Virus record (IMG/VR): IMGVR_UViG_3300020419_000013
Location: 1-64,000 of that record
Strand: one strand, 5' to 3'
Origin: a virus
DNA: 64,000 bases
The notes under the pieces were generated by a model. The model saw only the letters and a list, made by a program, of their open reading frames with translations. It had not been told where the DNA came from and did not search any database. The stretch's first letter is position 1. Every line of letters starts with the position of its first letter. Below are positions 10,862 to 63,548 of this stretch, in pieces. Both the position numbers and the translations under genes were made by a program.

Positions 10862-11536
10862 ATGTTTAATTATGTGGGACCTCCTTGCGAGATCCCTGAG
10901 TTAGAATCACGCACCCTAGAGCAGGGTAGATTCTACAAACTTGACACCGTTTGGGTGCCATCTGTGACTACTGTCATAGGTCATCAATCCAAGGCAGGTA
11001 TCATGGAATGGCAGAAGCGTGTCGGTTTCCATGAAGCAGAAAAGATTCGTATGAAGTCTTCATGGAGGGGGACAAAGTATCACAACCACGTTGAAAGGTA
11101 TTTAAGAAATGAAAATGTTGAGGCACATCAGAAAGGCGAAGGTCTTACCAACTACCTTTTTAGGGCTGCTCGTAAGGATCTTGATCGTATCTCTGATATC
11201 CATCTTATTGAAGCCCCTCTTTATTCTAACAATCTATTCCTTGCTGGCCGTGTTGATTGCCTTGCTCACTTTGATAACGAGCTTGCTGTAATTGACTTCA
11301 AGACTACAAGAGAGTTAAAGAAACCTCAGTGGTTGGAGAATTATTTTGTGCAGTGTAGTGCATATGCTTACATGTATTATGAGCACACTGGTATTGAAGT
11401 AGACAAACTTGTAACGATCTCTGTGTCTGAAGCAGGAGAGATGCAAGTAGAGCAGAGATATGATAAGGAGAAGTATATTAATAAACTTCTCGATTATATC
11501 AAAGAGTATAGGGATTTCATTGAGTCACGTCTATGA
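10862..11536 (+). CDS. PD-(D/E)XK exonuclease (RecB/Cas4-like)
   Basis: The 224-residue product has the nuclease core near residues 130-150: VDCLAHFDNELAVIDFKTT supplies the Asp of motif II and the DxK triad, and a helix with QCSAYAYMYYE follows as in RecB-type nucleases. An N-terminal SVTTVI segment and WRGTKYHNHVE (family motif with His) agree with the phage exonuclease / MGME1-like group. Expected action is on single-stranded DNA ends during recombination or host DNA breakdown. It overlaps the next start by four bases. Confidence 0.85.
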   Translation: MFNYVGPPCEIPELESRTLEQGRFYKLDTVWVPSVTTVIGHQSKAGIMEWQKRVGFHEAEKIRMKSSWRGTKYHNHVERYLRNENVEAHQKGEGLTNYLFRAARKDLDRISDIHLIEAPLYSNNLFLAGRVDCLAHFDNELAVIDFKTTRELKKPQWLENYFVQCSAYAYMYYEHTGIEVDKLVTISVSEAGEMQVEQRYDKEKYINKLLDYIKEYRDFIESRL

Positions 11537-51951: not shown

Positions 51952-52661
51952 AGCATCCATTAATTAAAATATATGATACTGACATACTGGACGATGATAT
52001 TTGTCGTCAAGCGATTGAGTTACCTTATTATCATGGACGCCAAGATTTGCCTGCACCTAATCTGGAAGAGGTAGATCTTAGAGGGACATACTACACACAT
52101 GATTTCTATAGTGTAGATCATCATGGAAGTAAACCTTTCGATCAATGCTCAGGTCATCATCTATATCAATGGGTGTTAGATAGACTCGAAGTTTGCTCAC
52201 ATGTGCCCGTACCTGCTCGTGATACGTTATACAGTGCATATATGAATGTATTGAAACATGGTGATGCACCTCGTATACATTGCGATGCACCGTCATGGGT
52301 TGATAATCAATGCACTATGATAGTATATTTTAATCAGAAGTGGAATCCTAACTTTGGAGGTGAAACTATATTCTATGATGACCAGTTAGATATTGTGCAC
52401 GCAGTCGTCCCAAAACCAGGTAGAGTGGTCATTTTCGATGGTAGGATACCACACTCAGGACGCACACCAACACCCTATTTCTTATGGAATAGATATATGA
52501 TGGCATTCAAGTTTATGGGTAAAGAGGTGAGGAATGAGTTACTTGACTGGGGAAGTAAGAATCACCCATATAAAGATGATGACATGGGTATAGCAGGATT
52601 TAGTCCTAGTAAAGTCAAGGAGTTAATGTATGAGCAAACCCTGTTATTCTGGACAAAATAA
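51948..52661 (+). CDS. 2OG-Fe(II) oxygenase, prolyl-hydroxylase-like
   Basis: 237 residues. RIHCDAPSWVDNQCTMIVYF gives HxD, GGETIFYDD the central motif, and RVVIFDGRIPHSGRTP gives the distal His with a following Arg in WNRYMMAF. This layout is typical of prolyl 4-hydroxylase-like phage enzymes. The start overlaps the previous stop by four bases; it is the last gene of the oxygenase block. Confidence 0.85.
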   Translation: MKHPLIKIYDTDILDDDICRQAIELPYYHGRQDLPAPNLEEVDLRGTYYTHDFYSVDHHGSKPFDQCSGHHLYQWVLDRLEVCSHVPVPARDTLYSAYMNVLKHGDAPRIHCDAPSWVDNQCTMIVYFNQKWNPNFGGETIFYDDQLDIVHAVVPKPGRVVIFDGRIPHSGRTPTPYFLWNRYMMAFKFMGKEVRNELLDWGSKNHPYKDDDMGIAGFSPSKVKELMYEQTLLFWTK

Positions 52662-53208: not shown

Positions 53209-53298
53209 GGCGAAACAACATTTTTATTATGTTTGTTTCGTCCCACCTATATGTGCCAATTAAATAACTGACCTAGGGGTGCACAGCACCCCATTTTT
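53209..53298 (+). ncRNA. Candidate small RNA of about 90 bases
   Basis: Between a perfect promoter and a strong terminator lies about 90 bases without a convincing gene. The 5' part forms an 11-bp hairpin with one bulged T (CGAAACAACAT 53211-53221 with 53229-53240, loop 53222-53228). A single-stranded linker and the terminator hairpin (53276-53292) follow. An 18-codon frame beginning ATG 53207 exists but runs through the hairpin and is not favoured. Confidence 0.55.
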
Positions 53299-53308
53299 AT
53301 GCTATAAT
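53252..53308 (+). promoter_or_regulatory. Compound inverted-repeat promoter element, copy 1 (degenerate)
   Basis: Left arm TGTGCCAAT (53252-53260), six-base spacer, right arm ACTGACCTA, a CAGCACC box at 53284 and TATAAT at 53303-53308. Distance from left arm to -10 is 51 bases. The box has become part of a terminator hairpin. It precedes the helicase gene. Confidence 0.5.
53276..53298 (+). terminator. Rho-independent terminator
   Basis: Stem GGGGTGC / GCACCCC with an ACA loop, followed by ATTTTT. It ends the candidate small RNA and separates it from the helicase. Confidence 0.85.
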
Positions 53309-53329
53309 GAGTCTAACGACACAAATACA

Positions 53330-54589
53330 TTGATTACACTTCGCCCACATCAGCAGAGATCACTCGATGCTATGGACAAAGCAAATAAAGGTCAGATCAT
53401 CGTCCCTACTGGTGGTGGTAAGACATTCATAATGATACAGCACGCTAAGAAACTATTGAATACTACAGACATGTATCTCAATAGACCTAAGCATATTGTT
53501 GTAGTTGCACCTCGTATATTACTTGCTCAGCAGTTATGTGACGATTTCATGGAGCAGATCAATGGACGTGTATGTCATGCTCACTCAGGTGAGACACATT
53601 ACTACAGCACTACAAAGAGTGACCAGATCGCCAACTTCATCGAAGGATGTCGTTGTTTACATGAGAATGCTATTATATTCACTACATATCACTCATTACA
53701 CAAAGTATTGGATGCTGATTTCGATATTGATGCTATCTATTTCGATGAAGCACACAACAGTGTAACAAGAGGATTCTTTCCTAAAGCGATGGATGCATCA
53801 CAAACAGCAAAGAAGTGTTACTTTTTTACAGCAACACCTCGTAGTGCTCGTAAGCAAGAAGGAATATTTACTCGTGGTATGAATAATAAGCACGTTTATG
53901 GCGAAGTGTTAGAGTCGGTGCCTGCACCTGAGTTAATCAGCAACGGTAGTATTGTATCACCCACTATTGTGCCATTTAACAGTGACCGCTCTTTAACTAA
54001 AGAGAATATGCACGAGACACACACCGATACAGTTACCGAGATACTTGACACACTTGACGAAGATCACGCTAGTAAGGTATTGATCGCAGTGCCTAGCAGT
54101 AGACAGTTAGGTAATATGATAGGTCATACTACATTACTATCTCAGTTGAGACTCAGAGGTTATGACTATTTGCATGTTACATCAAAGTATGGTGCATATG
54201 TCAATGACCAGAAAGTAAACAGAGAAGTATTCATGGACACCCTTGCGAAGTGGGGACGTGATGATAGCAAGAAGTTTGTTGTTATGCACTACAGTATTCT
54301 ATCTGAAGGTATTAACGTCCACGGTTTAACCCATTGCATTCTATTGAGAAATCTTAATATTGTTGCTATGGCACAAACAATAGGTAGAGTAATCAGGATG
54401 CATAAGGACGATGCTAGAGGAATTGCCGAGGGACGTATTCCTGCAGGTGCATGTCAGTTTTACAAAAAACCAACTGGTTATGTAACAGTCCCTATTCATA
54501 ACAACTATGGTCAAGCAGTAGTCAAGAGATTACAAAGAGTTGTAGATGAAATCTTTATTCAAGGAGTAGCACCCACCGCACTAATTTAA
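53330..54589 (+). CDS. SF2 DNA/RNA helicase
   Basis: 419 residues from TTG 53330, placed 22 bases after the -10; the frame is open upstream to a GTG at 53279, but that lies in the terminator. Walker A PTGGGKT at 26-32, DEAH at 139-142, motif III TAT in FFTATPRSAR, and motif VI QTIGRVIR at 349-356. The architecture is that of UvsW-like and type III restriction-related helicases that act on branched DNA or RNA. RPHQQRSLDAM at the N-terminus is the Q-motif-like region. It may do the job of T4 UvsW. Confidence 0.85.
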   Translation: MITLRPHQQRSLDAMDKANKGQIIVPTGGGKTFIMIQHAKKLLNTTDMYLNRPKHIVVVAPRILLAQQLCDDFMEQINGRVCHAHSGETHYYSTTKSDQIANFIEGCRCLHENAIIFTTYHSLHKVLDADFDIDAIYFDEAHNSVTRGFFPKAMDASQTAKKCYFFTATPRSARKQEGIFTRGMNNKHVYGEVLESVPAPELISNGSIVSPTIVPFNSDRSLTKENMHETHTDTVTEILDTLDEDHASKVLIAVPSSRQLGNMIGHTTLLSQLRLRGYDYLHVTSKYGAYVNDQKVNREVFMDTLAKWGRDDSKKFVVMHYSILSEGINVHGLTHCILLRNLNIVAMAQTIGRVIRMHKDDARGIAEGRIPAGACQFYKKPTGYVTVPIHNNYGQAVVKRLQRVVDEIFIQGVAPTALI

Positions 54590-54591
54590 TT

Positions 54592-54753
54592 ATGAAAAGG
54601 TATCAAATCAAATCCAAGTGGTATTACATATTCTGGGGAATAGCAACTGTATCAGTCGTTACTGGTCAGGTGTTAGTCGCACAAGGTTATCACCGTATGA
54701 GTGTGTCAGTTGAGAAACTGACCACTATCTTACACTACCGCATGGTAAACTAG
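54592..54753 (+). CDS. Small membrane protein
   Basis: 53 residues, MKRYQIKSKWYYIFWGIATV with one transmembrane segment (residues about 11-32). Its last 18 codons run through copy 2 of the compound promoter element. It starts two bases after the helicase stop. Function unknown. Confidence 0.55.
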   Translation: MKRYQIKSKWYYIFWGIATVSVVTGQVLVAQGYHRMSVSVEKLTTILHYRMVN

Positions 54754-54768
54754 TATAATAAGAATATA
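54702..54768 (+). promoter_or_regulatory. Compound inverted-repeat promoter element, copy 2
   Basis: TGTGTCAGT (54702-54710), six-base spacer, ACTGACCAC, CACTACC at 54733 and TATAAT at 54754-54759 (52 bases from the left arm; box to -10 is 21 bases). It directly precedes the putative restriction endonuclease. Confidence 0.7.
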
Positions 54769-54783
54769 CGAAACACAAACACA

Positions 54784-55392
54784 ATGCAAACATCTAATCA
54801 AGACCTATCATCAGCACTATCTAAGATCATTCCAGTTGCTATTAAACTCACTGAGCAACGTGTAGCAAAGATGCTAGAGATCGGTAGTGGTGGTAAAAAA
54901 CCAGACCTAGATTCATTCTTTGGTGCTGACAATACAGTTGACAAGACTAAGTTTCTAGCAAACATCTTTAACCCTGCACTAGAGGACTCAGCAAAACAGT
55001 TAGGTGTTGACTACATCACCGAGGAAACAGTTGGTTACGATGCTATTCTATTAGATGAAGAGATCGAAAACAAAATGTCACTAGGTAGTAGCACATCATC
55101 ATTCGCTACTGGTAACAATCATAGTAAGACTAAGGTTGACAAGATATTTTGCATCAAGTTTACACAGAATGAGAATTCTTTCCCAAGTGTATTTGCATGT
55201 ATTGTTGACTTATCTCTTAAACAGAATGAAGCAACTGGATGGACAGATTCAGTTACAAAGACTGGTAAAAACAACAATGGATTCTCTACTCTTAGAATTC
55301 ATAACGAAGACAGAATGTGTGTAACACCTATCTTTGGTAACGTAAGACGCACTCAAAAGTTTATCCACACAGTATATGAAGATATCAAGTAA
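54784..55392 (+). CDS. Putative type II restriction endonuclease (PD-(D/E)XK)
   Basis: 202 residues. A nuclease core is plausible at residues 86-97 (DAILLDEEIENK): Asp 86, then ENK with Glu 95 and Lys 97, the D...ExK pattern. It is followed by a Ser/Gly-rich stretch (SLGSSTSSFATGNN) and KTKVDKIFCIKF, a layout seen in type II enzymes where Ser/Lys residues follow the catalytic strand. It overlaps a beta-class DNA methyltransferase by 17 bases, a strong contextual sign. No similarity can be confirmed here, so function is inference. Expressed from copy 2 of the compound promoter. Confidence 0.6.
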   Translation: MQTSNQDLSSALSKIIPVAIKLTEQRVAKMLEIGSGGKKPDLDSFFGADNTVDKTKFLANIFNPALEDSAKQLGVDYITEETVGYDAILLDEEIENKMSLGSSTSSFATGNNHSKTKVDKIFCIKFTQNENSFPSVFACIVDLSLKQNEATGWTDSVTKTGKNNNGFSTLRIHNEDRMCVTPIFGNVRRTQKFIHTVYEDIK

Positions 55393-56236
55393 TAACACAT
55401 ACCTAATGAGTTGTATAGATGGTATGCAACTCATGGATGAGCAGTCAGTTGACCTAGTAGTCACTTCACCACCATACGATGATCTCAGGACATACAACGA
55501 TAGCAGTAAGTGGGACTTTAATGTCTTTAAAGAAGTTGCTAAGGGATTGACCAGAGTATTAAAAGATGGTGGTGTTATCATGTGGAATGTTAATGACGCT
55601 ACAATTAAGGGATCGGAGACTGGATCGAGTTTTAGACAGTGTTTGCATTTCGTAGATGAATGTGGTTTAAGATTACATGACACAATGATATATGAGAAAA
55701 CAGGCACCGCTTTCGCTAGTGGTGTTAAGTCAGTAAGATATACTCAGGTGTTTGAGTATTGTTTCATACTATCCAAGGGTAGACCCAAGAGTATTAACCT
55801 TATTCAAGATAAGAAAAACAAGTGGGCAGGGATAACATCATGGGGCAATGCTACATCACGCAATAAGGATGGGACAACGAATGACCCTAATCGAAAAAGC
55901 AATGCAATCAAGGAGTGGGGAGTAAGGACAAACATATGGAGGATTAAAAACAGTGGTGGTTTTGGACAATCGTCTAAAGCATCATATAAACATCCTGCTA
56001 CAATGCCAGAAGAGTTAGCACGAGGTCACATTAAAACGTGGTCAAGTGTTAACGATGTAGTGCTAGACCCATTCATGGGTGCAGGCACTACCGCTCAGGT
56101 TGCAATGGAAGAGAATAGACAATACATAGGTTTTGAGATTGATAAAACATATCACAAAATGTGTGTTGACAGAATGCTACCATTCAAAGATAACGTATTA
56201 ACTAGACTATTACTTGAGGATTTAGACCATTGTTAA
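55376..56236 (+). CDS. DNA methyltransferase, N4-cytosine/N6-adenine, beta class
   Basis: 286 residues. Motif IV TSPPY at 30-34 comes first and the AdoMet motif FMGAGTT at 233-239 near the C-terminus, the order of beta-class MTases. NNTYLMSCIDGMQLM is a typical N-terminal start. The TSPPY variant occurs in both N4-cytosine and N6-adenine enzymes. It overlaps the putative endonuclease, so it probably protects phage DNA. Its stop overlaps the next gene's TTG. Confidence 0.9.
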   Translation: MKISSNNTYLMSCIDGMQLMDEQSVDLVVTSPPYDDLRTYNDSSKWDFNVFKEVAKGLTRVLKDGGVIMWNVNDATIKGSETGSSFRQCLHFVDECGLRLHDTMIYEKTGTAFASGVKSVRYTQVFEYCFILSKGRPKSINLIQDKKNKWAGITSWGNATSRNKDGTTNDPNRKSNAIKEWGVRTNIWRIKNSGGFGQSSKASYKHPATMPEELARGHIKTWSSVNDVVLDPFMGAGTTAQVAMEENRQYIGFEIDKTYHKMCVDRMLPFKDNVLTRLLLEDLDHC

Positions 56237-56448
56237 GAAACAGAGCACTAGTGGTGCCCAAATCTAATAAGGCACAACAGATATTCAACAAATATCTTAA
56301 TAATAAGAATGAGGTAATTGTTGAAGAGATCAGGGGAAACAGAGTATTTTGCTCAGCACCCGACTATCCCGACTTTTGGTTTTGGGTTGACAGACTAGAA
56401 GGTGGGGATGATAACTGGCAGATTCAACTATTAAACAATCGATTATGA
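56230..56448 (+). CDS. Small hypothetical protein
   Basis: 72 residues from a TTG at 56230 that overlaps the methyltransferase end. Basic N-terminal helix (VVPKSNKAQQIFNKYL) and strands FCSAPDYPDFWFWVD. Joined to its neighbours by short overlaps. No family recognised. Confidence 0.55.
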   Translation: MLRNRALVVPKSNKAQQIFNKYLNNKNEVIVEEIRGNRVFCSAPDYPDFWFWVDRLEGGDDNWQIQLLNNRL

Positions 56449-56660
56449 CTAATTTAATTGATAAGAATGACCCATTATGGTTTGCACAAACAAGTAATAA
56501 ACCATATGATAGGCACCATTATAAAGTAATATCCAAATCAGGTGAGACAAATGTGTTGACTTCCTATGATGAGGTGATCGAGACATGGTGGAATAAACGT
56601 CATTTTATAGATAGAATTGAAGTAATTGACAAACCAAAAAAGAGGGGTAAAGGTTTTTGA
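56445..56660 (+). CDS. Small basic hypothetical protein
   Basis: 71 residues, MTNLIDKNDPLWFAQTSNKP and YDEVIETWWNKRHFIDRI, ending with a basic tail (PKKRGKGF). It overlaps the previous and the next gene by four bases each. Function unknown. Confidence 0.55.
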   Translation: MTNLIDKNDPLWFAQTSNKPYDRHHYKVISKSGETNVLTSYDEVIETWWNKRHFIDRIEVIDKPKKRGKGF

Positions 56661-57193
56661 TTGAAGTTGTTAGTGGGTTATTTCCTGACTGGTTAGTAGA
56701 TCAGACAGCACAAAAACTCAGTGAGTATCCTATACGATGGACAAATAGTCCATACGCATGTTATGATAAGGCACGATTCTTTGGCACAATGGTAGTCAGA
56801 AATGGTGAATTTATTGGTGCCGAGGATTCATGGTTTATAAAATACTTTAATGCTATGATGGAGCACCGACTACAGGCACATACATTAAGGACACTATTAA
56901 ATGTGCAATTTAATAATATGGACAGTCAGATACACAACGATGGTGACGTCAACAGTCTAGTGTCAGTTGTGTATCATGTAGCAGGCACCGATGGTGATAC
57001 AGTATTTTACAATAGTGCAAACGAGGAAATTAAAAGAGTCCCTTTTAATATGGGTCAAGCGATTATTTTCCCATCGCACATTTATCACATGGGACTACCA
57101 CCCAAGAGTGGCATACGAGTGACCCTAGGGTCAATCTATGATGTGGCAGATCAACAAGTGGCACAAGACACCACTCTACGACTAGTAGCATAG
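56657..57193 (+). CDS. 2OG-Fe(II) oxygenase-like protein
   Basis: 178 residues from a TTG overlapping the previous stop (TTGA). QIHNDGDVNSLVSVVYHV gives HND (an HxD variant), DGDTVFYN the central strand, FPSHIYHMG the distal His and RVTLGSIYD the Arg. This is a seventh oxygenase in the window, counting the partial one at the right edge as an eighth. The C-terminal region carries copy 3 of the compound element, so regulation of the following genes overlaps its coding sequence. Confidence 0.75.
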   Translation: MIEVVSGLFPDWLVDQTAQKLSEYPIRWTNSPYACYDKARFFGTMVVRNGEFIGAEDSWFIKYFNAMMEHRLQAHTLRTLLNVQFNNMDSQIHNDGDVNSLVSVVYHVAGTDGDTVFYNSANEEIKRVPFNMGQAIIFPSHIYHMGLPPKSGIRVTLGSIYDVADQQVAQDTTLRLVA

Positions 57194-57205
57194 TCTATAA
57201 TATTA
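57142..57205 (+). promoter_or_regulatory. Compound inverted-repeat promoter element, copy 3
   Basis: TGTGGCAGA (57142-57150), six-base spacer, AGTGGCACA, box CTCTACG at 57174 (expected position, 32 bases from the left arm) and TATAAT at 57196-57201 (54 bases). It is embedded in the 3' end of the preceding gene. Confidence 0.6.
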
Positions 57206-57207
57206 GT

Positions 57208-57265
57208 AAGCAAGAATGCTAACATTCAAAAGTGCTTAGGGATACCTTTCTTGCTTTCTCTATTT
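57208..57265 (+). ncRNA. Candidate leader hairpin/attenuator
   Basis: Directly after copy 3, at the predicted transcript start, AAGCAAGAA (57208-57216) pairs perfectly with TTCTTGCTT (57248-57256); a U-rich tract (57257-57268) follows. This looks like a short terminated RNA or attenuator before the gene at 57274. Confidence 0.45.
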
Positions 57266-57273
57266 TTTATATT

Positions 57274-57420
57274 ATGCAAAACGTCCCATTTTATGACTTT
57301 CCACAGTCACCAATTTTGATTATTGGATTCTTTGGTATTTTAACAGCACTCATAGTATTATATGTTGCTAATAACAAATACTTTAATTCACCTTTTAACG
57401 AGGACAACAATGCCAAGTAA
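57274..57420 (+). CDS. Small membrane protein
   Basis: 48 residues from ATG 57274; upstream in-frame codons fall in the leader hairpin. One transmembrane segment (SPILIIGFFGILTALIVLYV) and an acidic end. Overlaps the next gene by 11 bases. Confidence 0.6.
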   Translation: MQNVPFYDFPQSPILIIGFFGILTALIVLYVANNKYFNSPFNEDNNAK

Positions 57421-57625
57421 TCAAATTGAATTCGCAATCTCATCTATGAGATATATTTACATGAAAAACATCGAAAGACATGTAGATGACAATAATATAG
57501 GTAACAGTGATGCTATCTTTCAAGAGTATATCATAGATAATAAAGACCCCGAGGAATTAGATTATGAATGGATGTATTTACCCGATCTCAATGACCAACA
57601 AGAAGACATATCACATATACTTTGA
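57410..57625 (+). CDS. Small acidic hypothetical protein
   Basis: 71 residues from ATG 57410. Acidic, helical (QIEFAISSMRYIYMKNIERH), ending LPDLNDQQEDISHIL. It overlaps both neighbours. Function unknown. Confidence 0.6.
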   Translation: MPSNQIEFAISSMRYIYMKNIERHVDDNNIGNSDAIFQEYIIDNKDPEELDYEWMYLPDLNDQQEDISHIL

Positions 57626-57770
57626 AGATAAATGTATCTTTAAAGATTTAGACCAAGATGAATTCGATCTGATTTGGGGACGAATTTATAGGTCATATCA
57701 TACTCACTCACTATCATATAGTATGGTGAGCGATTTGCCCGATAGTGCTCTCGTAGAATCATCGTTTTAA
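57591..57770 (+). CDS. Conserved small cyanophage-type protein
   Basis: 59 residues from ATG 57591. KTYHIYFEDKCIFKDLDQDEF, followed by IWGRIYRSYHTHSLSY, a pattern I recall in many cyanophage small early proteins. Acidic/aromatic, soluble. It overlaps the previous gene by 35 bases. Confidence 0.65.
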   Translation: MTNKKTYHIYFEDKCIFKDLDQDEFDLIWGRIYRSYHTHSLSYSMVSDLPDSALVESSF

Positions 57771-57774
57771 AACT

Positions 57775-58011
57775 ATGGACAACAAACTAAACTACACTGA
57801 AATACGCAAATACTTCTCAACGAATGAGTGGCGATATATTTCAGAAGTAATTGATCGAGAGACTCATGACTTCGGACACACTGATATAAGTAGATCAGTG
57901 ACTAGTAAGATCGATAAATTAAATCTAGATCAATGGGACAACCTTAGAGAAGAGAATACAATAATTGAATCATACTACAGACAACTCAATGACAAAGATC
58001 AAGGTAATTGA
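57775..58011 (+). CDS. Small hypothetical protein
   Basis: 78 residues: NKLNYTEIRKYFSTNEWRYI and DKLNLDQWDNLREEN, two charged helices. No known motif. Next gene follows after two bases. Confidence 0.6.
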   Translation: MDNKLNYTEIRKYFSTNEWRYISEVIDRETHDFGHTDISRSVTSKIDKLNLDQWDNLREENTIIESYYRQLNDKDQGN

Positions 58012-58013
58012 CT

Positions 58014-58157
58014 ATGAAAGCATATGCATTATACATTCTAATCGGTATTGTTTTTTTAACTCTCATCCGTGGCACTCTACAGATTGATAGGAGTGAAAGA
58101 AACAATCGATTATATGAGGAATTATGTAAGGTTGACAAGGATTATTGTGCCAGTTAG
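58014..58157 (+). CDS. Small membrane-anchored protein
   Basis: 47 residues; an N-terminal transmembrane segment (YALYILIGIVFLTLI) and a charged tail with two cysteines (ELCKVDKDYCAS). The stop codon is inside copy 4 of the compound element, whose left arm TGTGCCAGT encodes the last residues. Confidence 0.55.
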   Translation: MKAYALYILIGIVFLTLIRGTLQIDRSERNNRLYEELCKVDKDYCAS

Positions 58158-58204
58158 ATTACTGTCACACATGAGCACACTACGGTGTGCTTTTTTGTTA
58201 TTAT
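58146..58204 (+). promoter_or_regulatory. Compound inverted-repeat promoter element, copy 4 with terminator
   Basis: TGTGCCAGT (58146-58154), six-base spacer, ACTGTCACA, box CACTACG at 58178 and TATTAT at 58199-58204, exactly 53 bases from the left arm. The box is inside a terminator hairpin. Confidence 0.65.
58175..58196 (+). terminator. Rho-independent terminator
   Basis: GCACAC / GTGTGC with a TACG tetraloop, followed by six T. It uses the same bases as the CACTACG box of copy 4. Confidence 0.85.
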
Positions 58205-58225
58205 ATTAATAGTTAAGAAACACAC

Positions 58226-58489
58226 ATGCACAACTTCAAAGAATTTCTAGACTATTGCGAATCATTCTATAGTCCAGAGCACCCTGACTGTCTGTATCCT
58301 ATCGATGGACTAACAAGACAAGAGTTAGCACTTGCAACTCTCAACGTTTTAGATTTATGTGAAGAAGGCACTCATGTCACATGGGGTGGTGGTGATTCAC
58401 TAGACCGTGAGCGTGTAAGAGATCAGGTAATCGAGACTAGAGCAGTTGATTACAACAGAATTCAGAAAATTTTCAAGGAGTATGCATAA
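58226..58489 (+). CDS. Conserved small early protein
   Basis: 87 residues. MHNFKEFLDYCESFYSP, GLTRQELALATLNVLD and TWGGGDSLDRERVRD; the last part resembles a helical binding region. I recall similar small proteins in cyanophages. It follows copy 4 and its stop overlaps the next ATG. Confidence 0.65.
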   Translation: MHNFKEFLDYCESFYSPEHPDCLYPIDGLTRQELALATLNVLDLCEEGTHVTWGGGDSLDRERVRDQVIETRAVDYNRIQKIFKEYA

Positions 58490-58665
58490 TGACTATTACA
58501 AGATCAGACTGTCGTTATTACATCAACGAAATCAAAGACATGGCAAAAAACTTTGATGATAAGACAGAGGAAAAGATTAACCAAAAAGCAAGAAGCATTA
58601 CATCTACAAATTTAAAGAAATTGTATAATGAATTGCTCGAAGAAATTTACGGAGTGAATTACTAA
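58489..58665 (+). CDS. Small charged helical protein
   Basis: 58 residues; MTITRSDCRYYINEIKDMAK, DKTEEKINQKARSITS and a helical end ELLEEIYGVNY. Start and stop overlap neighbouring genes by one base. Function unknown. Confidence 0.6.
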   Translation: MTITRSDCRYYINEIKDMAKNFDDKTEEKINQKARSITSTNLKKLYNELLEEIYGVNY

Positions 58666-58859
58666 TGAAAACTCAAGACCCGATCAACTTCCTCGTAGAT
58701 ATCTACGAAAATTGGTGTGATGACCAACGTCTACCGCTCATGGATGCCAGTGATTTGCTCGTAGCAGACACTAATGGCGAAGTATACCTACAAGATCATC
58801 ATAAAGAGTGGATACACAATTTTATTGATCTTTGGGATGTAGTGGAGCAAAACTCATGA
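58665..58859 (+). CDS. Small acidic protein
   Basis: 64 residues, PINFLVDIYENWCDDQRLP and DLLVADTNGEVYLQDHHKEW. Acidic and helical. It overlaps the previous stop and the next start. Function unknown. Confidence 0.6.
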   Translation: MKTQDPINFLVDIYENWCDDQRLPLMDASDLLVADTNGEVYLQDHHKEWIHNFIDLWDVVEQNS

Positions 58860-59074
58860 AAACAATTAACTATCAAGTAACAGAAATTGATCTCTACTTA
58901 TCTGAAGTTGGAGACGGAGACCCCGATTTGCAATTTACACCCCAAGAGGAATATGTCATGCACCAAAGATGTCTAGGCAGATGGACAGCATACAATGAAG
59001 ATGACCTAAGAAATCGAATATTTGATTTTATTGGTTATCATGCAGAAACACTTAAATACGAGGTAAGATCATGA
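58856..59074 (+). CDS. Small acidic hypothetical protein
   Basis: 72 residues from ATG 58856 (ATGA overlap with the previous stop), beginning MKTINYQVTEIDLYLSEVG. Acidic N-terminal half and a more basic C-terminus (HAETLKYEVRS). Part of a five-gene coupled run from 58226 to 59340. Confidence 0.6.
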   Translation: MKTINYQVTEIDLYLSEVGDGDPDLQFTPQEEYVMHQRCLGRWTAYNEDDLRNRIFDFIGYHAETLKYEVRS

Positions 59075-59340
59075 ATGCACAAGAATTACACAACGAAGTA
59101 GTTGAAACTTATGTTGACATTACTGTTGACAGAATGACTACAGAAGAGTTAGTGAAGTATGTTAGTGACGATTTACACAGACAATTCACTAAAATGACAG
59201 ATAACGATTTCAAAGAGTATGTATTCAACAATGATGATGAGCACCTCTATGAAGAGTTAAGCGATTATGTCACCGAGGACGATGATACCACAGCACTGTT
59301 AATGATGCAAGAAATTAAATATGACCGTGAAGTTGATTAA
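59071..59340 (+). CDS. Highly acidic small protein
   Basis: 89 residues, very acidic: MTTEELVKYVSDDLHRQFT and YVTEDDDTTALLMMQEIKYD. The low isoelectric point suggests a DNA-mimic or inhibitor type, but this is inference from charge alone. No known family. Confidence 0.6.
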   Translation: MNAQELHNEVVETYVDITVDRMTTEELVKYVSDDLHRQFTKMTDNDFKEYVFNNDDEHLYEELSDYVTEDDDTTALLMMQEIKYDREVD

Positions 59341-59352
59341 ATGCCACAATAT

Positions 59353-59360
59353 GCTATAAT
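59353..59360 (+). promoter_or_regulatory. Extended -10 promoter TGCTATAAT
   Basis: TGC-TATAAT with a TTGATT hexamer 16 bases upstream of the -10. No inverted repeat is present here. It precedes the gene at 59390 and the second methyltransferase. Confidence 0.55.
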
Positions 59361-59389
59361 ATAATATAATCACATTAATCCAAATTATT

Positions 59390-59656
59390 ATGAGAAACAT
59401 TACAATCACTTTGAAAATTGAATGCGAAAAGGATGCTGAGATTAATCCATTGCATGTTGCTGAAGAAGTCCAAGCATATTTGGATGCACATTCAACTTAT
59501 TTTGACACAGTGACCGAAGACTACCGCACCCCACTTATAAAAGGTTATCTCATGGAGTGGGATAAGTTTACACCTGTTTGTTTTAAAGATAATGATGAAG
59601 ACAGCGAAGACACTGAAGAATATAATGAAGTAGAGGATGCAGCAAGTTACACATGA
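59390..59656 (+). CDS. Small acidic hypothetical protein
   Basis: 88 residues. An N-terminal strand (NITITLKIECEKDAEINP) resembles a ferredoxin-like or binding strand, and the C-terminus is very acidic (DNDEDSEDTEEYNEVEDA). It overlaps the second methyltransferase by four bases. Function unknown. Confidence 0.62.
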   Translation: MRNITITLKIECEKDAEINPLHVAEEVQAYLDAHSTYFDTVTEDYRTPLIKGYLMEWDKFTPVCFKDNDEDSEDTEEYNEVEDAASYT

Positions 59657-60570
59657 TAAAAAGAAATAGCATAGTATATGGTGATGTTAGACAAACATTG
59701 CCCGATTTATGGATGCATAAGGCACAAATGTGTGTAACTAGTCCACCCTATTATGGACTAAGGGATTATGGTGGGGAAGAGAATCAAGTAGGACAAGAAG
59801 AAACACCAGAGGATTATATTAATAATATGGTCAAGATCTTTCGCTTAGTTAGAGATAATTTACAGGATGATGGCACATTATGGTTGAATATTGGGGATAG
59901 TTATTATAACTATAGACCAGGAAAAGGTCAGTCATATCCTAAGCAATCAGTATCTAAAACTAAACAAGATTTGCCTGATAAATGTAATAAACGAGGTAAT
60001 AAGTTAGAAGGATTAAAAGAAAAGGATTTAATCGGTATTCCGTGGATGTTGGCGTTTGCATTACGTCAGGATGGATGGTATCTAAGGCAAGATATTATTT
60101 GGCATAAACCTAACCCGATGCCCGAATCCGTAAGAGATAGATGCACTAAGGCACATGAGTATATTTTTCTATTCTCTAAGAATAAGAAATATTATTATGA
60201 TAATGAAGCAATTAAAGAGGACGCTAAGGACTGGGGGACGAGAGACCGCACAAAAGGAAAGTATCATAATAAGGGGACAGGATTACAACCGCATACTGGA
60301 CTATCAAAAAGTTATCCTAAAAAGAATAAAAGATCTGTATGGTCAGTAACCAATAAACCATATAAGGGAAGTCATTTTGCAGTATTTCCACCTGACTTAA
60401 TACAACCGTGCATACTGGCAGGGAGTAAAAAAGGGGATTTAGTGCTAGACCCATTTATGGGTAGTGGCACCACGGCGATGGTAAGTAAGCAATTAGGACG
60501 TGATTATATTGGATGTGAGTTGCATGAAGATTATAATGAATTAATAGAGAAAAGGATAAATGGGGTGTGA
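59653..60570 (+). CDS. Second DNA methyltransferase, beta class
   Basis: 305 residues. Motif IV TSPPYYGLRDYG begins at residue 29 and FMGSGTT is at 268-274, the beta-class order. The central DLIGIPWMLAFALRQDGW, then LRQDIIWHKPNPMPESV are characteristic of phage N4-cytosine/N6-adenine MTases. No endonuclease gene is adjacent, so it looks orphan. The stop codon lies within the left arm of copy 5 of the compound element. Confidence 0.9.
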   Translation: MIKRNSIVYGDVRQTLPDLWMHKAQMCVTSPPYYGLRDYGGEENQVGQEETPEDYINNMVKIFRLVRDNLQDDGTLWLNIGDSYYNYRPGKGQSYPKQSVSKTKQDLPDKCNKRGNKLEGLKEKDLIGIPWMLAFALRQDGWYLRQDIIWHKPNPMPESVRDRCTKAHEYIFLFSKNKKYYYDNEAIKEDAKDWGTRDRTKGKYHNKGTGLQPHTGLSKSYPKKNKRSVWSVTNKPYKGSHFAVFPPDLIQPCILAGSKKGDLVLDPFMGSGTTAMVSKQLGRDYIGCELHEDYNELIEKRINGV

Positions 60571-60630
60571 CAGTTGGATTAGTGGCACACAGGAGCACAC
60601 TACGGTGTTTCAGAGCACTATAATATTAAT
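60566..60630 (+). promoter_or_regulatory. Compound inverted-repeat promoter element, copy 5
   Basis: TGTGACAGT (60566-60574), six-base spacer, AGTGGCACA, box CACTACG at 60598 and TATAAT at 60619-60624 (53 bases from the left arm, 21 from the box). Confidence 0.72.
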
Positions 60631-60647
60631 ATACAAACGAGGTTAAC

Positions 60648-61034
60648 ATGGACGGATTTCAAAAAAGAGTTATCAAGGCAATCGATAAAAGAGAATCTAC
60701 TTCACTCAGAAATGGATTAACTGTTTTAAATTCATATCAAACAGGCAATGCATTCACAAGTGTTGTTAAAATCGATGGTCAAGAGATCGCTACAGTATTC
60801 TACACACATGACCAAGACGATCGTGCATTTAATACACATGGTGGTAAGTATAACCCAGATCAGTCAATCCAAGACATGATTAAAAATGATAAATGGCAGA
60901 TCGATGAGATAGATTTCAATCAGAGAGCGATCGATAGAGTCCTAGGCACTAATGCAGTAAGATATAAGAATCTCTTAACTAGGCATTATGTAGCACAGGG
61001 AGTAAGAATTAATACCCAGTTTGTGACAGTTTAA
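60648..61034 (+). CDS. Hypothetical early protein
   Basis: 128 residues. FQKRVIKAIDKRESTSLRN and SVVKIDGQEIATVFYTHD followed by basic helices. The general plan (RNGLTVLNSYQ, KIDGQEIA) resembles the protein at 63228 (short strand with NHIA-type turn), so the two may be related. The C-terminus reads into copy 6 of the compound element. Confidence 0.6.
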   Translation: MDGFQKRVIKAIDKRESTSLRNGLTVLNSYQTGNAFTSVVKIDGQEIATVFYTHDQDDRAFNTHGGKYNPDQSIQDMIKNDKWQIDEIDFNQRAIDRVLGTNAVRYKNLLTRHYVAQGVRINTQFVTV

Positions 61035-61085
61035 TTACTGTCACACTATCGTGCACTACCGCACTAAAAACCATTATAATAAGAG
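61022..61085 (+). promoter_or_regulatory. Compound inverted-repeat promoter element, copy 6 (perfect repeat)
   Basis: TGTGACAGT (61022-61030), spacer TTAATT, ACTGTCACA (61037-61045): the arms are perfect complements. Box CACTACC at 61054 and TATAAT at 61075-61080. Confidence 0.78.
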
Positions 61086-61100
61086 TAATCAAACAAACAA

Positions 61101-61343
61101 ATGAATTCAACAGCAATTTACACAGAATCAGTTAACAGAATCAAGCAAGCGATTCTATTCGATAATACTCTAGAAGGTATTAGTTGCATATGTGCAAATT
61201 GGAAGGAATTTGTAATTGAGACTTCAGAGTGGGGAATTCAGACAGTAGGAGGAGTTGATTTTGTTTCTCTTACTAACGAAGATATCACTAAATTAGATCA
61301 GTTTATGGTCTCACAAAACGGATACATCACAGAGGAATTTTAA
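61101..61343 (+). CDS. Small hypothetical protein
   Basis: 80 residues, MNSTAIYTESVNRIKQAILF and CANWKEFVIETSEWG. Two cysteines near the middle. Downstream of copy 6 by a short leader and followed one base later by the next gene. Confidence 0.6.
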   Translation: MNSTAIYTESVNRIKQAILFDNTLEGISCICANWKEFVIETSEWGIQTVGGVDFVSLTNEDITKLDQFMVSQNGYITEEF

Positions 61344-61344
61344 A

Positions 61345-61545
61345 ATGAATGAATTCAAATACACAATCGAAACACCTCGATTATTCAAGTCAGAAGTCTA
61401 TACTGATGACCTAGAGAAAGCGAAAGATTTATCTTTTGAATTTGGATGTGATTATGAATATTCTTGTGTTAGAGATAATGAGACAGGTGAGATTATCGAT
61501 GAGACTGGTAACATTATGGGTTTAGTAGCAGAGGGGATAGTTTAG
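61345..61545 (+). CDS. Small acidic hypothetical protein
   Basis: 66 residues, MNEFKYTIETPRLFKSEVYT and ETGEIIDETGNIMGL. Strand-rich and acidic. It ends directly next to the left arm of copy 7. Function unknown. Confidence 0.6.
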   Translation: MNEFKYTIETPRLFKSEVYTDDLEKAKDLSFEFGCDYEYSCVRDNETGEIIDETGNIMGLVAEGIV

Positions 61546-61610
61546 TGTGCCAGTTTAATTAGTGGCACATGGTTGCACACTACCGCACAATAAACCATTA
61601 TAATATTAGT
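61546..61610 (+). promoter_or_regulatory. Compound inverted-repeat promoter element, copy 7
   Basis: TGTGCCAGT (61546-61554), spacer TTAATT, AGTGGCACA, box CACTACC at 61578 and TATAAT at 61599-61604 (53 and 21 bases). Confidence 0.78.
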
Positions 61611-61631
61611 ATAAGCAACAAACAAAGACAC

Positions 61632-62069
61632 ATGACTGTTTCAAATCCAACAATCGAAAAACTCATTCCTAATTGGGTAGACCTACATGTTGAAGCACTA
61701 GAGGACAATTACAGAAAGCACCACATCGAAATGCATTCTCGTCCAAGCATCGGATTCTCTCAGGAATATGCAAATAAGGTGTTAGAGGAAGTGAGAAATG
61801 GGACAGCAAAATTAATGAAGTTTAGAGCAATCACTGGTAAGAAGTATTACAAAGTTGTTTCTCAAGCATGGGATGAGAATAGAAAAGAATACAGAGATCA
61901 ATCAGTTACTTGTTTCATCGATAAGAAAACTGGCGAAATCTACAAACCTGCAAGTTGGAAGTCACCCGCTAAGCATGTAAGATACGATATGAGAATCATA
62001 TCTCAAAGAGAAAGAATGCACAACAGTAAGTTTACTGACTGGGCAGGCGGTTACCTATACTTGAGGTAA
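61632..62069 (+). CDS. Conserved phage protein
   Basis: 145 residues from ATG 61632; an in-frame ATG at 61569 lies inside the promoter. NPTIEKLIPNWVDLHVEAL, RAITGKKYYKVVSQAWD, VTCFIDKKTGEIYKPASW and DWAGGYLYLR; this last half is a recurrent pattern in phage proteins of unknown role. Basic and soluble. Confidence 0.68.
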   Translation: MTVSNPTIEKLIPNWVDLHVEALEDNYRKHHIEMHSRPSIGFSQEYANKVLEEVRNGTAKLMKFRAITGKKYYKVVSQAWDENRKEYRDQSVTCFIDKKTGEIYKPASWKSPAKHVRYDMRIISQRERMHNSKFTDWAGGYLYLR

Positions 62070-62110
62070 CCACAGTGTGTAAGCAATTTCCAGGAAAAGT
62101 CAACCAAGTG

Positions 62111-62175
62111 TGTGCCAGTAATAAAACTGTCACACATGAAGACACTACATCATTATTATCCACTATAATAAGAGT
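62111..62175 (+). promoter_or_regulatory. Compound inverted-repeat promoter element, copy 8
   Basis: TGTGCCAGT (62111-62119), six-base spacer, ACTGTCACA, box CACTACA at 62143 and TATAAT at 62164-62169 (53 and 21 bases). Confidence 0.75.
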
Positions 62176-62196
62176 ATACAAAGCAAGGAGACAAAA

Positions 62197-62394
62197 ATGA
62201 CTCTACCAAACACTAACAACGAGATCTTTGAAGATCTAATGACACAGTTTCAAGAAAGAGGTTTTTCAAACAGAGATTTTGATTTAGAAGGCATTGCAAA
62301 CTTCAGAGCAAATCAGATCTGTAACCGCATGTATCTCGCAGACAGAGGTCACGGAGCATTTAAAGCAGAATACGGTGGGAGGGCATGGGCATGA
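62197..62394 (+). CDS. Small hypothetical early protein
   Basis: 65 residues, MTLPNTNNEIFEDLMTQFQE, with NFRANQICNRMYLADRGHG. AAGGAG at the ribosome site. Opens a coupled run of five small genes. Function unknown. Confidence 0.62.
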   Translation: MTLPNTNNEIFEDLMTQFQERGFSNRDFDLEGIANFRANQICNRMYLADRGHGAFKAEYGGRAWA

Positions 62395-62573
62395 GTCACG
62401 CAACTAACGATACCATACTTGAAAACCTATATGACGAAGTATGGGAGGAGTATAGGGTTAAAAACAACTTAACCCTAGACCAAATGTATCATCTAGAGCA
62501 AGATGAAAATTCTGGTATTATGTCAATGCTAGGAGACCAAGCAACCACATTATTCGAGGAGTTAGCACAATGA
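62391..62573 (+). CDS. Small acidic helical protein
   Basis: 60 residues from ATG 62391 (ATGA overlap). ATNDTILENLYDEVWEEYRV and GDQATTLFEELAQ. No known motif. Its stop overlaps the next start. Confidence 0.6.
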   Translation: MSHATNDTILENLYDEVWEEYRVKNNLTLDQMYHLEQDENSGIMSMLGDQATTLFEELAQ

Positions 62574-62755
62574 CCAGAAAAGAGTATGAATTAGTCTATT
62601 CCGCACTACGGAATTACCGCACTTATATGTTACCAGAGGAGGAAGTGCTTGCGGAGAAAATTCTAGATGATATTTTCTATCCATCTTTTGATGCACTCAA
62701 GGGAGTAGAAGAAGAGGAAGCAGAAAACGAAATTAAGAGTTTAAACTTCTCATGA
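62570..62755 (+). CDS. Small acidic helical protein
   Basis: 61 residues; MTRKEYELVYSALRNYRTYM and an acidic end EEEEAENEIKSLNFS. It overlaps neighbours by four bases on each side. Function unknown. Confidence 0.6.
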   Translation: MTRKEYELVYSALRNYRTYMLPEEEVLAEKILDDIFYPSFDALKGVEEEEAENEIKSLNFS

Positions 62756-62982
62756 ATAACGGATATATAGCGAGCGAAGCATTCGGTCGAGTCTTTTGGA
62801 TAGATGAGAAGAATGACTTCAGAAGTGCACCTCTATTGGTCAAGGGAGGTGCAGATCTCACTCAATGCGATTATGTCGAGGAGTGGACAGACCTAGAAGG
62901 ATTAAAACTAGGTGAATTACTTGACATTCAAAAACAATTACTCAATTCAAACATTCGCATTAATCACACTTTAAAACTATGA
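62752..62982 (+). CDS. Small hypothetical protein
   Basis: 76 residues; a strand part (GYIASEAFGRVFWIDEKNDF) and a C-terminal helix (LGELLDIQKQLLNSNI). Overlaps the next ATG by four bases. Function unknown. Confidence 0.6.
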   Translation: MNNGYIASEAFGRVFWIDEKNDFRSAPLLVKGGADLTQCDYVEEWTDLEGLKLGELLDIQKQLLNSNIRINHTLKL

Positions 62983-63125
62983 ATCAATTCGATATCACAT
63001 TTGATGAGCAATATCAGATGATTAAATTGTATGACCTATTGAGAGATATGGACATTGAATTACATGATTTACAAAGATCAGTATTTGACAAAATCATGGA
63101 AGCAAAGTATAGTGGAGTATCATGA
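62979..63125 (+). CDS. Small acidic hypothetical protein
   Basis: 48 residues, MNQFDITFDEQYQMIKLYDL and an acidic helix (LRDMDIELHDLQRS). The ATGA overlap with the previous stop supports translation. It ends 16 bases before copy 9. Confidence 0.55.
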   Translation: MNQFDITFDEQYQMIKLYDLLRDMDIELHDLQRSVFDKIMEAKYSGVS

Positions 63126-63141
63126 AACACGCAACTCTTCT

Positions 63142-63206
63142 TGTGACAGTTGTATTAGTGGCACATACGCTCACACTACCACACTTTTAACCACTATAAT
63201 ATTAGT
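63142..63206 (+). promoter_or_regulatory. Compound inverted-repeat promoter element, copy 9
   Basis: TGTGACAGT (63142-63150), six-base spacer, AGTGGCACA, box CACTACC at 63174 and TATAAT at 63195-63200 (53 and 21 bases). Confidence 0.78.
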
Positions 63207-63227: not shown

Positions 63228-63548
63228 ATGAGAAAAATTGAAAGACAAATGAATCAAGCAGTTAGAAACAGATCTAACTTCTCATCATCCAATACAACAG
63301 TTGTTGCAGGTTGGGATGGCGAAGCAGACGTTTATTTACATGGTAATCACATTGCTACGGTCAAGTCTAACTCAATTATCATCAAAGATGGCGGTTGGCA
63401 GTCAAATACCACTAAAAGCAGACTAAACGCTCTACTTGATGAATTCTCATATGGTATGAGAGTATTTCAGAAAAACTACGAGTGGTTCGTAGGTTACAAG
63501 AATGTTAAAGAGGATTTCGTGAGCGGTATGGAGTTAGCAATCGACTAA
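63228..63548 (+). CDS. Conserved small phage protein
   Basis: 106 residues. MRKIERQMNQAVRNRSNFSS, VYLHGNHIATVKSNSI and DGGWQSNTTKSRLNALLDEF, a pattern I recall as widespread in phages and of unknown function. Basic N-terminus and a strand-rich middle. Directly downstream of copy 9. Confidence 0.68.
   Translation: MRKIERQMNQAVRNRSNFSSSNTTVVAGWDGEADVYLHGNHIATVKSNSIIIKDGGWQSNTTKSRLNALLDEFSYGMRVFQKNYEWFVGYKNVKEDFVSGMELAID

Follow-up and report, generated by a model that had tools for sequence, protein, structure and literature searches.

A 64,000-nucleotide stretch of viral DNA (the window), which forms part of a 67.1-kb IMG/VR virus record, carries at nine places what looks like one compound regulatory element: an inverted repeat, a CACTACC-like box and a -10. 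Is this element real, does it act as DNA or as RNA, and what reads it? The closest relative that we found for the window is Cyanophage P-TIM40 (Kyanoviridae, Libanvirus), with about 80% identity in the matching parts, and it is in phages of this kind that control of transcription has been hard to explain. Homologs of alt, modA, modB, motA and asi are lacking from cyanomyoviruses according to a 2010 review, which called the mode of their early and middle transcription unclear (PMC2984593), and the absence of motA and asiA from T4-like cyanophages is reported in two sources (PMC2984593, PMC5780444).

Results

The compound element and its nine copies

The compound element is real. It is present, in full or as a variant, at every one of the nine positions originally proposed (Table 1), and the distances given there from the left arm to the -10 were correct, being 51, 52 and 54 bases and, in six cases, 53. 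Those six copies (58146, 60566, 61022, 61546, 62111 and 63142) match TGTGNCAGT-N6-ASTGNCACA exactly, where 0 are expected from dinucleotide shuffles of the window, and in all of them the -10 lies 53 bases from the arm; exact oriented matches to the arm pattern number nine, against 0 in shuffles. The arms had been described too uniformly for the remaining copies, since 53252 and 54702 lack the right arm ascribed to them and the left arm at 57142 differs, reading TGTGGCAGA, which still leaves this copy a good variant. Scored with a weight matrix derived from other phages, 53252 reaches only a low value and 54702 stays below the threshold, and the degenerate right arms of both are kept in P-TIM40, where the ACTGACC form of copy 1 is conserved. 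Likewise, the CACTACC-like box is missing at 53252 and displaced at 57142 and is found at the other copies. The original prediction overlooked that the two arms of the operator are asymmetric.

Table 1. Positions of the operators, promoters, terminators and associated genes
Feature	Position	Strand	Box	-10	Further details
Copy 1, degenerate operator TGTGCCAAT-N6-ACTGACCTA	53252..53275	+		TATAAT 53303-53308	weight-matrix score 18; distance 51; helicase gene downstream
Intrinsic terminator GGGGTGCACAGCACCCC + ATTTTT	53276..53292	+			between copy 1 operator and -10
Copy 2, degenerate operator, right arm ACTGACCAC	54702..54725	+	CACTACC 54733	TATAAT 54754-54759	below weight-matrix threshold; orthologous degenerate form in P-TIM40
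Copy 3, operator TGTGGCAGA-N6-AGTGGCACA	57142..57165	+		TATAAT 57196-57201	weight-matrix score 33.5; distance 54
Copy 4, operator	58146..58169	+	CACTACG 58178	TATTAT 58199-58204	gene 58226-58489
Intrinsic terminator GAGCACACTACGGTGTGCTT + T-run	58173..58192	+			between copy 4 operator and -10
Copy 5, operator	60566..60589	+	CACTACG 60598	TATAAT 60619-60624	gene 60648-61034
Copy 6, operator	61022..61045	+	CACTACC 61054	TATAAT 61075-61080	gene 61101-61343
Copy 7, operator	61546..61569	+	CACTACC 61578	TATAAT 61599-61604	DUF7717 gene, end 62069
Copy 8, operator	62111..62134	+	CACTACA 62143	TATAAT 62164-62169	
Copy 9, operator	63142..63165	+	CACTACC 63174	TATAAT 63195-63200	
Kyano_Gp96 (PF23790) gene	63228..63548	+			assigned to copy 9 promoter
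T4-GC390 copy of source contig	65814-65975 (L474:2815-2976)				beyond window

Downstream of copy 2 a 202-aa open reading frame without a Pfam match (54784-55392) extends into the beginning of an N6/N4 DNA methyltransferase gene (55376-56236), an arrangement that resembles a small restriction-modification pair. A second methyltransferase of this type lies at 59653-60570.

Architecture of the operator and promoter

The operator is a 24-bp pseudo-palindrome, TGTGNCANT-N6-ANTGNCACA, whose arms span about -65 to -42 and are centred on -53.5 when base 53 after the arm start is set as -12. Its spacing from the -10 is nearly constant, with peaks in metaviral sites at offsets 53 (80) and 54 (25) and few sites at other offsets; after deduplication, 147, 33 and 8 of 188 metaviral sites have the -10 at 53, 54 and 52, respectively. 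Outside the arms lie two further boxes. One is a TTG at exactly +31, the other its mirror image, a CAA that sits at -10 counted from the arm start; either is present at about one site in four, and they reach to about -32 and -75, respectively. The TTG is found at 75/296 sites with a -10, at 45/182 with a -10 on the other strand only and at 33/92 without any; because its frequency is independent of the -10, we regard the outer boxes as parts of the operator, the TTG also occupying the -35 position. The mirror CAA and the same independence speak against a reading of this TTG as a -35. For CTA or CCA at +32 the corresponding counts are 53/296, 2/182 and 0/92, and this near confinement to sites with a -10 makes the CACTACC box, whose counterpart in other phages is CCCAT-like, a separate and promoter-specific element.

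An activator-type site whose distance from a -10 is fixed, together with a poor -35, is a trait of activator-dependent phage promoters, and both are present here: in two thirds of the promoters (129/188) the match to TTGACA is 3/6 or less. The main rival to activation is a phage repressor, in which case host sigma-70 polymerase would start transcription here without delay, until a freshly synthesized phage protein that binds upstream shut the promoters off at the passage from early to middle transcription. Such a scheme would remove the need for an early activator that exists beforehand, and it can draw on -10s that are near consensus and on TTGACA matches of at least 4/6 at 59/188 sites where about 19 are expected. 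We nevertheless consider it unlikely, given that an operator upstream of the -35 at near-constant spacing is more typical of activators, that most sites have no -35 and that the TTG at +31 does not go with the -10.

Among IMG/VR loci, 34 operators have a correctly spaced -10 on both strands, forming divergent promoters on one site, and 92 oriented operator matches have none on either side. P-SSM2 (NC_006883) contains a 400-bp stretch without annotated genes (66280-66679) that holds three operator copies with their -10s on the minus strand and is possibly a regulatory hub or origin.

Selection on the parts

Orthologous promoters of the window and P-TIM40 are 86-87% identical in the arms, 88% in the box and 86% in the -10, against 60% in the six inter-arm bases, 29% in bases 24-30 and 47-50% in the flanks. 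This contrast is direct evidence for the selection that had merely been inferred from constant spacing. The accompanying claim that the sequence between the parts is variable holds well for bases 24-30 and less well for the six inter-arm bases, so the intervening stretches are not equally free. Could recent duplication or recombination simply have spread the repeats without their regulating anything? A leader like that of window copy 57142 occurs at a different P-TIM40 locus, which is consistent with cassette shuffling, but arms, box and -10 are conserved where the gaps have diverged, and divergent genera retain the geometry despite differing gap sequences, so that we find spread without function barely credible.

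A site in DNA rather than RNA

The operator behaves as DNA. At arm position 4/19 we counted 78 Watson-Crick pairs against 74.8 expected, the position varying without compensatory pairing, and at 7/16 the arms are anti-paired, with 30 Watson-Crick pairs against 57.9 expected and none of 5000 shuffles as low; the counts come from unbiased scans, and the shuffle test ignores relatedness among the sequences. Neither a role of the arms as a terminator or structured RNA, for which the covariation counts revealed no complementarity kept by compensatory change, nor any known RNA family, for which an Rfam search with the element gave no match, finds support, and an RNA hairpin is rejected on these two grounds, a cruciform on the pairing counts. 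Lack of compensatory pairing and the anti-pairing at one position together indicate an operator that acts as DNA and not as an RNA hairpin; the 7/16 anti-pairing points to duplex DNA bound by a protein, with one unlike contact between the halves. It is true that a 9-bp arm is able to fold, that genuine terminators exist between arm and -10, and that a published stem-loop of S-PM2 (11369-11391) falls exactly within this gap, all of which might suggest that the inverted repeat works at the RNA level, its hairpin either terminating transcripts or marking them for processing, as a plain PeSL would. That is very improbable when the arms show no covariation and at 7/16 tend away from complementarity, when four of the six exact copies in the window fail to pair at 4/19, and when no T-run follows the arms and Rfam is blank.

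Terminators within the element and likeness to PeSL cassettes

Some copies do contain an intrinsic terminator, in the gap and not in the arms. At 53252 a GGGGTGC/GCACCCC hairpin with T5 occupies the place of the CACTACC-like box, and at 58146 the box itself forms part of the terminator hairpin, an arrangement repeated in P-TIM40. Intrinsic terminators also lie in the gap of some copies from other phages, and by a strict test 12/188 metaviral sites have one, against 3 when shuffled. In S-PM2 the operator at 11347 is followed by the stem-loop and then by the -10, and this stem-loop has been discussed in connection with PeSLs (PMC4503421). PeSL (promoter-early stem-loop) cassettes of T4-like phages (Arbiol 2010; Comeau 2014), as presented there, consist of an early-type promoter and a terminator stem-loop and are located between small ORFs of hyperplastic regions (PMC4503421). 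The present element is alike in having an early-type promoter in such a setting, in some copies together with a terminator stem-loop, and the S-PM2 stem-loop named there sits inside an element of the present kind; it also satisfies the PeSL criterion of a sigma-70-type promoter between small ORFs of a hyperplastic region, its sites lying upstream of gp25. It differs in that the terminator is optional, the constant part being a protein-type operator at fixed spacing to the -10.

A 35-bp leader that follows the operator promoter at window positions ~57215-57250 is 97% identical to one at ~52540-52574 of P-TIM40, at loci that are not orthologous (operators at 57142 and 52466). This single case of a displaced leader pair suggests a promoter-leader cassette that has moved.

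Genomic position and downstream genes

The majority of sites fall within a run of small genes that precedes gp25, for example at 48.9-55.0 kb in P-TIM40, 41.5-52.0 kb in P-RSM4 and 39.9-47.2 kb in MbCM1. Two further genes are preceded by conserved sites: the 'peptidase' gene T4-GC146, immediately, in four genera (P-RSM4, MbCM1, Syn9 and P-SSM2), and cobS in two (MbCM1 and P-SSM2). The start codon ATG usually stands 26-34 nt past the first base of the -10. Homologs of Kyano_Gp96 have an operator no more than 200 bp upstream in 31/47 metaviral loci, compared with 2/47 for random places in the same loci. That the genes driven by the element are early is inferred from genomic position.

Distribution among phages and hosts

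All 12 of the 12 T4-like cyanophage genomes examined have the same geometry. The 24-bp arms with a -10 at 52-54 are found in P-TIM40, P-RSM4, MbCM1, S-TIM4, S-SSM5, Syn9, S-PM2, P-SSM4 and P-SSM2, and the element is also present in P-HM1, P-SSM7 and the freshwater phage S-CRM01. A weight matrix for operator plus -10 gave 109 matches in seven complete genomes and 0 in shuffled sequence, with the qualification that near-palindromic sites may score once on each strand; exact matches to a relaxed pattern number 1-7 per complete phage genome, and a reversed control pattern gave 0. Syn9 has a single exact site and a small number that score with the matrix. The arms with TATAAT at exactly +53 after them are present in at least 120 stretches of IMG/VR. 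The prediction would have been refuted by random occurrence of the motif in unrelated genomes; instead, of 125 metaviral loci that contain the compound site, 123 have genes for relatives of T4-like cyanophage proteins, and no site with one mismatch or fewer is present in T4, the T4-like SAR11 phage HTVC008M or the non-T4-like cyanophages S-TIM5, P-SSP7, PSS2 and Ma-LMM01. The element is thus restricted to one lineage, the T4-like cyanophages.

In S-CRM01 the -10s seem to be missing under the matrix, and by eye several sites have TATGCT at +53. At 127441, 134497 and 149101 of this genome (NC_015569) the geometry is kept and a recurrent TATGCTAGCTAAG block replaces TATAAT.

An alternative reader is a host transcription factor, hijacked as the phage enters: it would function immediately on entry, and the phages have picocyanobacterial hosts in common. 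The hosts, though, hardly possess the site, which is absent in exact form from 198/201 Cyanobiaceae genomes and present in 3. In a two-mismatch scan near matches exceed a control pattern about 2-fold, and the recurrent ones inspected lie inside conserved coding genes; a host regulon, with sites before host genes, is thus not in evidence from the exact scan of 201 genomes or from these near matches. Moreover, P-SSP7, PSS2 and S-TIM5 infect the same host groups without having the site. A host factor remains formally possible despite the lack of host sites; we regard it as decidedly unlikely.

Two Synechococcus sp. genomes, SB0662 and SB0668, have identical exact operators (L156 2747-2770 and L192 5000-5023), located downstream of a 1335-aa gene with no -10 at phage spacing.

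Candidates for the regulator

The near absence of the site from host genomes, taken with its distribution among phages, argues for a reader encoded by the phage, although the protein is unidentified. The predicted regulon with a dedicated DNA-binding factor is therefore supported, by the lineage-wide operator and -10, by the scarcity in hosts and by the behaviour as a DNA site. Profiles of nine operator phages disclosed no obvious DNA-binding protein in all and only these phages, and the proteins that they share and that HTVC008M and S-TIM5 lack, MazG and DUF3110 among others, include no evident DNA-binding family.

Individual candidates were set aside in turn. T4-GC147, labelled a 'DNA binding protein', is a relative of pyrimidine-dimer glycosylase; phrog_385, labelled a 'transcriptional regulator', has no Pfam match, and its profile also matches in HTVC008M. 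Kyano_Gp96 was set aside, its confidently predicted fold (pLDDT 92) matching nothing in the PDB. T4-GC390, of AbrB/MazE fold, is suggestively placed where the early block ends, and neither HTVC008M nor S-TIM5 has it. Against it stand its strong acidity, with a pI of 4.1 for the P-TIM40 protein, and the failure to detect it in S-CRM01 and P-HM1. Most T4-like cyanophages encode this small protein immediately upstream of the gp25 block, and its acidity may mean that it is an antagonist of a host AbrB-type protein or a DNA mimic rather than a DNA binder.

Discussion

Our preferred interpretation, to which we give a probability of roughly 60%, is that the element is a lineage-wide operator-promoter at which a dimeric protein encoded by the phage activates promoters that have only a -10; the factor, the activation and the early timing are all inferred. 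Host sigma-70 RNA polymerase would use the -10, a reliable -35 being replaced by the 24-bp operator near -53.5, extended by the outer CAA and TTG boxes at about a quarter of sites per side. The putative protein, a dimer or dimer of dimers, would bind the duplex operator at a fixed distance from RNA polymerase and on a fixed face relative to it, and might thereby activate the small early genes that precede the gp25 block as well as the peptidase and cobS genes. The promoters so served would be early, perhaps early/middle, in phages that have no Alt, ModA, MotA or AsiA. In a minority of copies the 29-bp gap with its intrinsic terminator would end the upstream transcript, creating an insulating cassette. 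Overall, the element belongs with phage promoters under an activator or a repressor, here joined to a cassette of PeSL-like type.

By analogy with Mu Mor or T4 MotA, what appears to fit best is an activator that stands in for the -35 contact, bound at a different site. The MotA box is short and lies at about -30. The middle promoters of T4 that depend on MotA and AsiA are alike in their host polymerase, good -10 and activator site in place of the -35, whereas the cyanophage operator is a long pseudo-palindrome centred near -53. With an operator at about -65 to -42, no motA or asi homologs reported and no operator in T4, the element does not qualify as a MotA middle promoter. Mu Mor/C, phi29 p4 and lambda CII are phage activators that bind dyad or repeat sites upstream of promoters with poor -35s, as proposed here; the cyanophage site differs from theirs in sequence and centre, no homolog was identified, and a single cyanophage activator would serve many small transcription units.

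Several observations weigh against activation of this kind. To act immediately early, an activator would have to be made beforehand or travel in the virion. Copy number varies, and the 92 oriented sites without a -10 have to be accommodated. Most early genes of Syn9, with its one exact site and few scored sites, must use something else.

A bolder and more tentative proposal, for which we would offer slightly less than even odds, is that one lineage-specific DNA-binding protein of an unrecognised family has replaced Alt, ModA, MotA and AsiA and reads a 44-bp, two-tier pseudo-palindrome, CAA-N7-TGTGNCANT-N6-ANTGNCACA-N7-TTG, in which one position is held different between the half-sites; such a protein would do the work of the -35 at early and some middle genes.

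In the literature searched, which did not include Doron 2016, Sullivan 2010 or the primary PeSL papers, there is no earlier description of the operator, so that prior notice is possible; the operator, its rule of asymmetry and its lineage-wide use appear to be new. Because it is common to all T4-like cyanophages examined, the operator can serve as bait for the missing regulator, and its motif can be overlaid on the existing transcriptomes of Syn9, P-HM2 and P-SSM2. It tags early genes, their functions as yet unassigned, in viruses that are very abundant in the ocean, and the element offers a route to learning how T4-like cyanophages seize transcription without the proteins that T4 uses.
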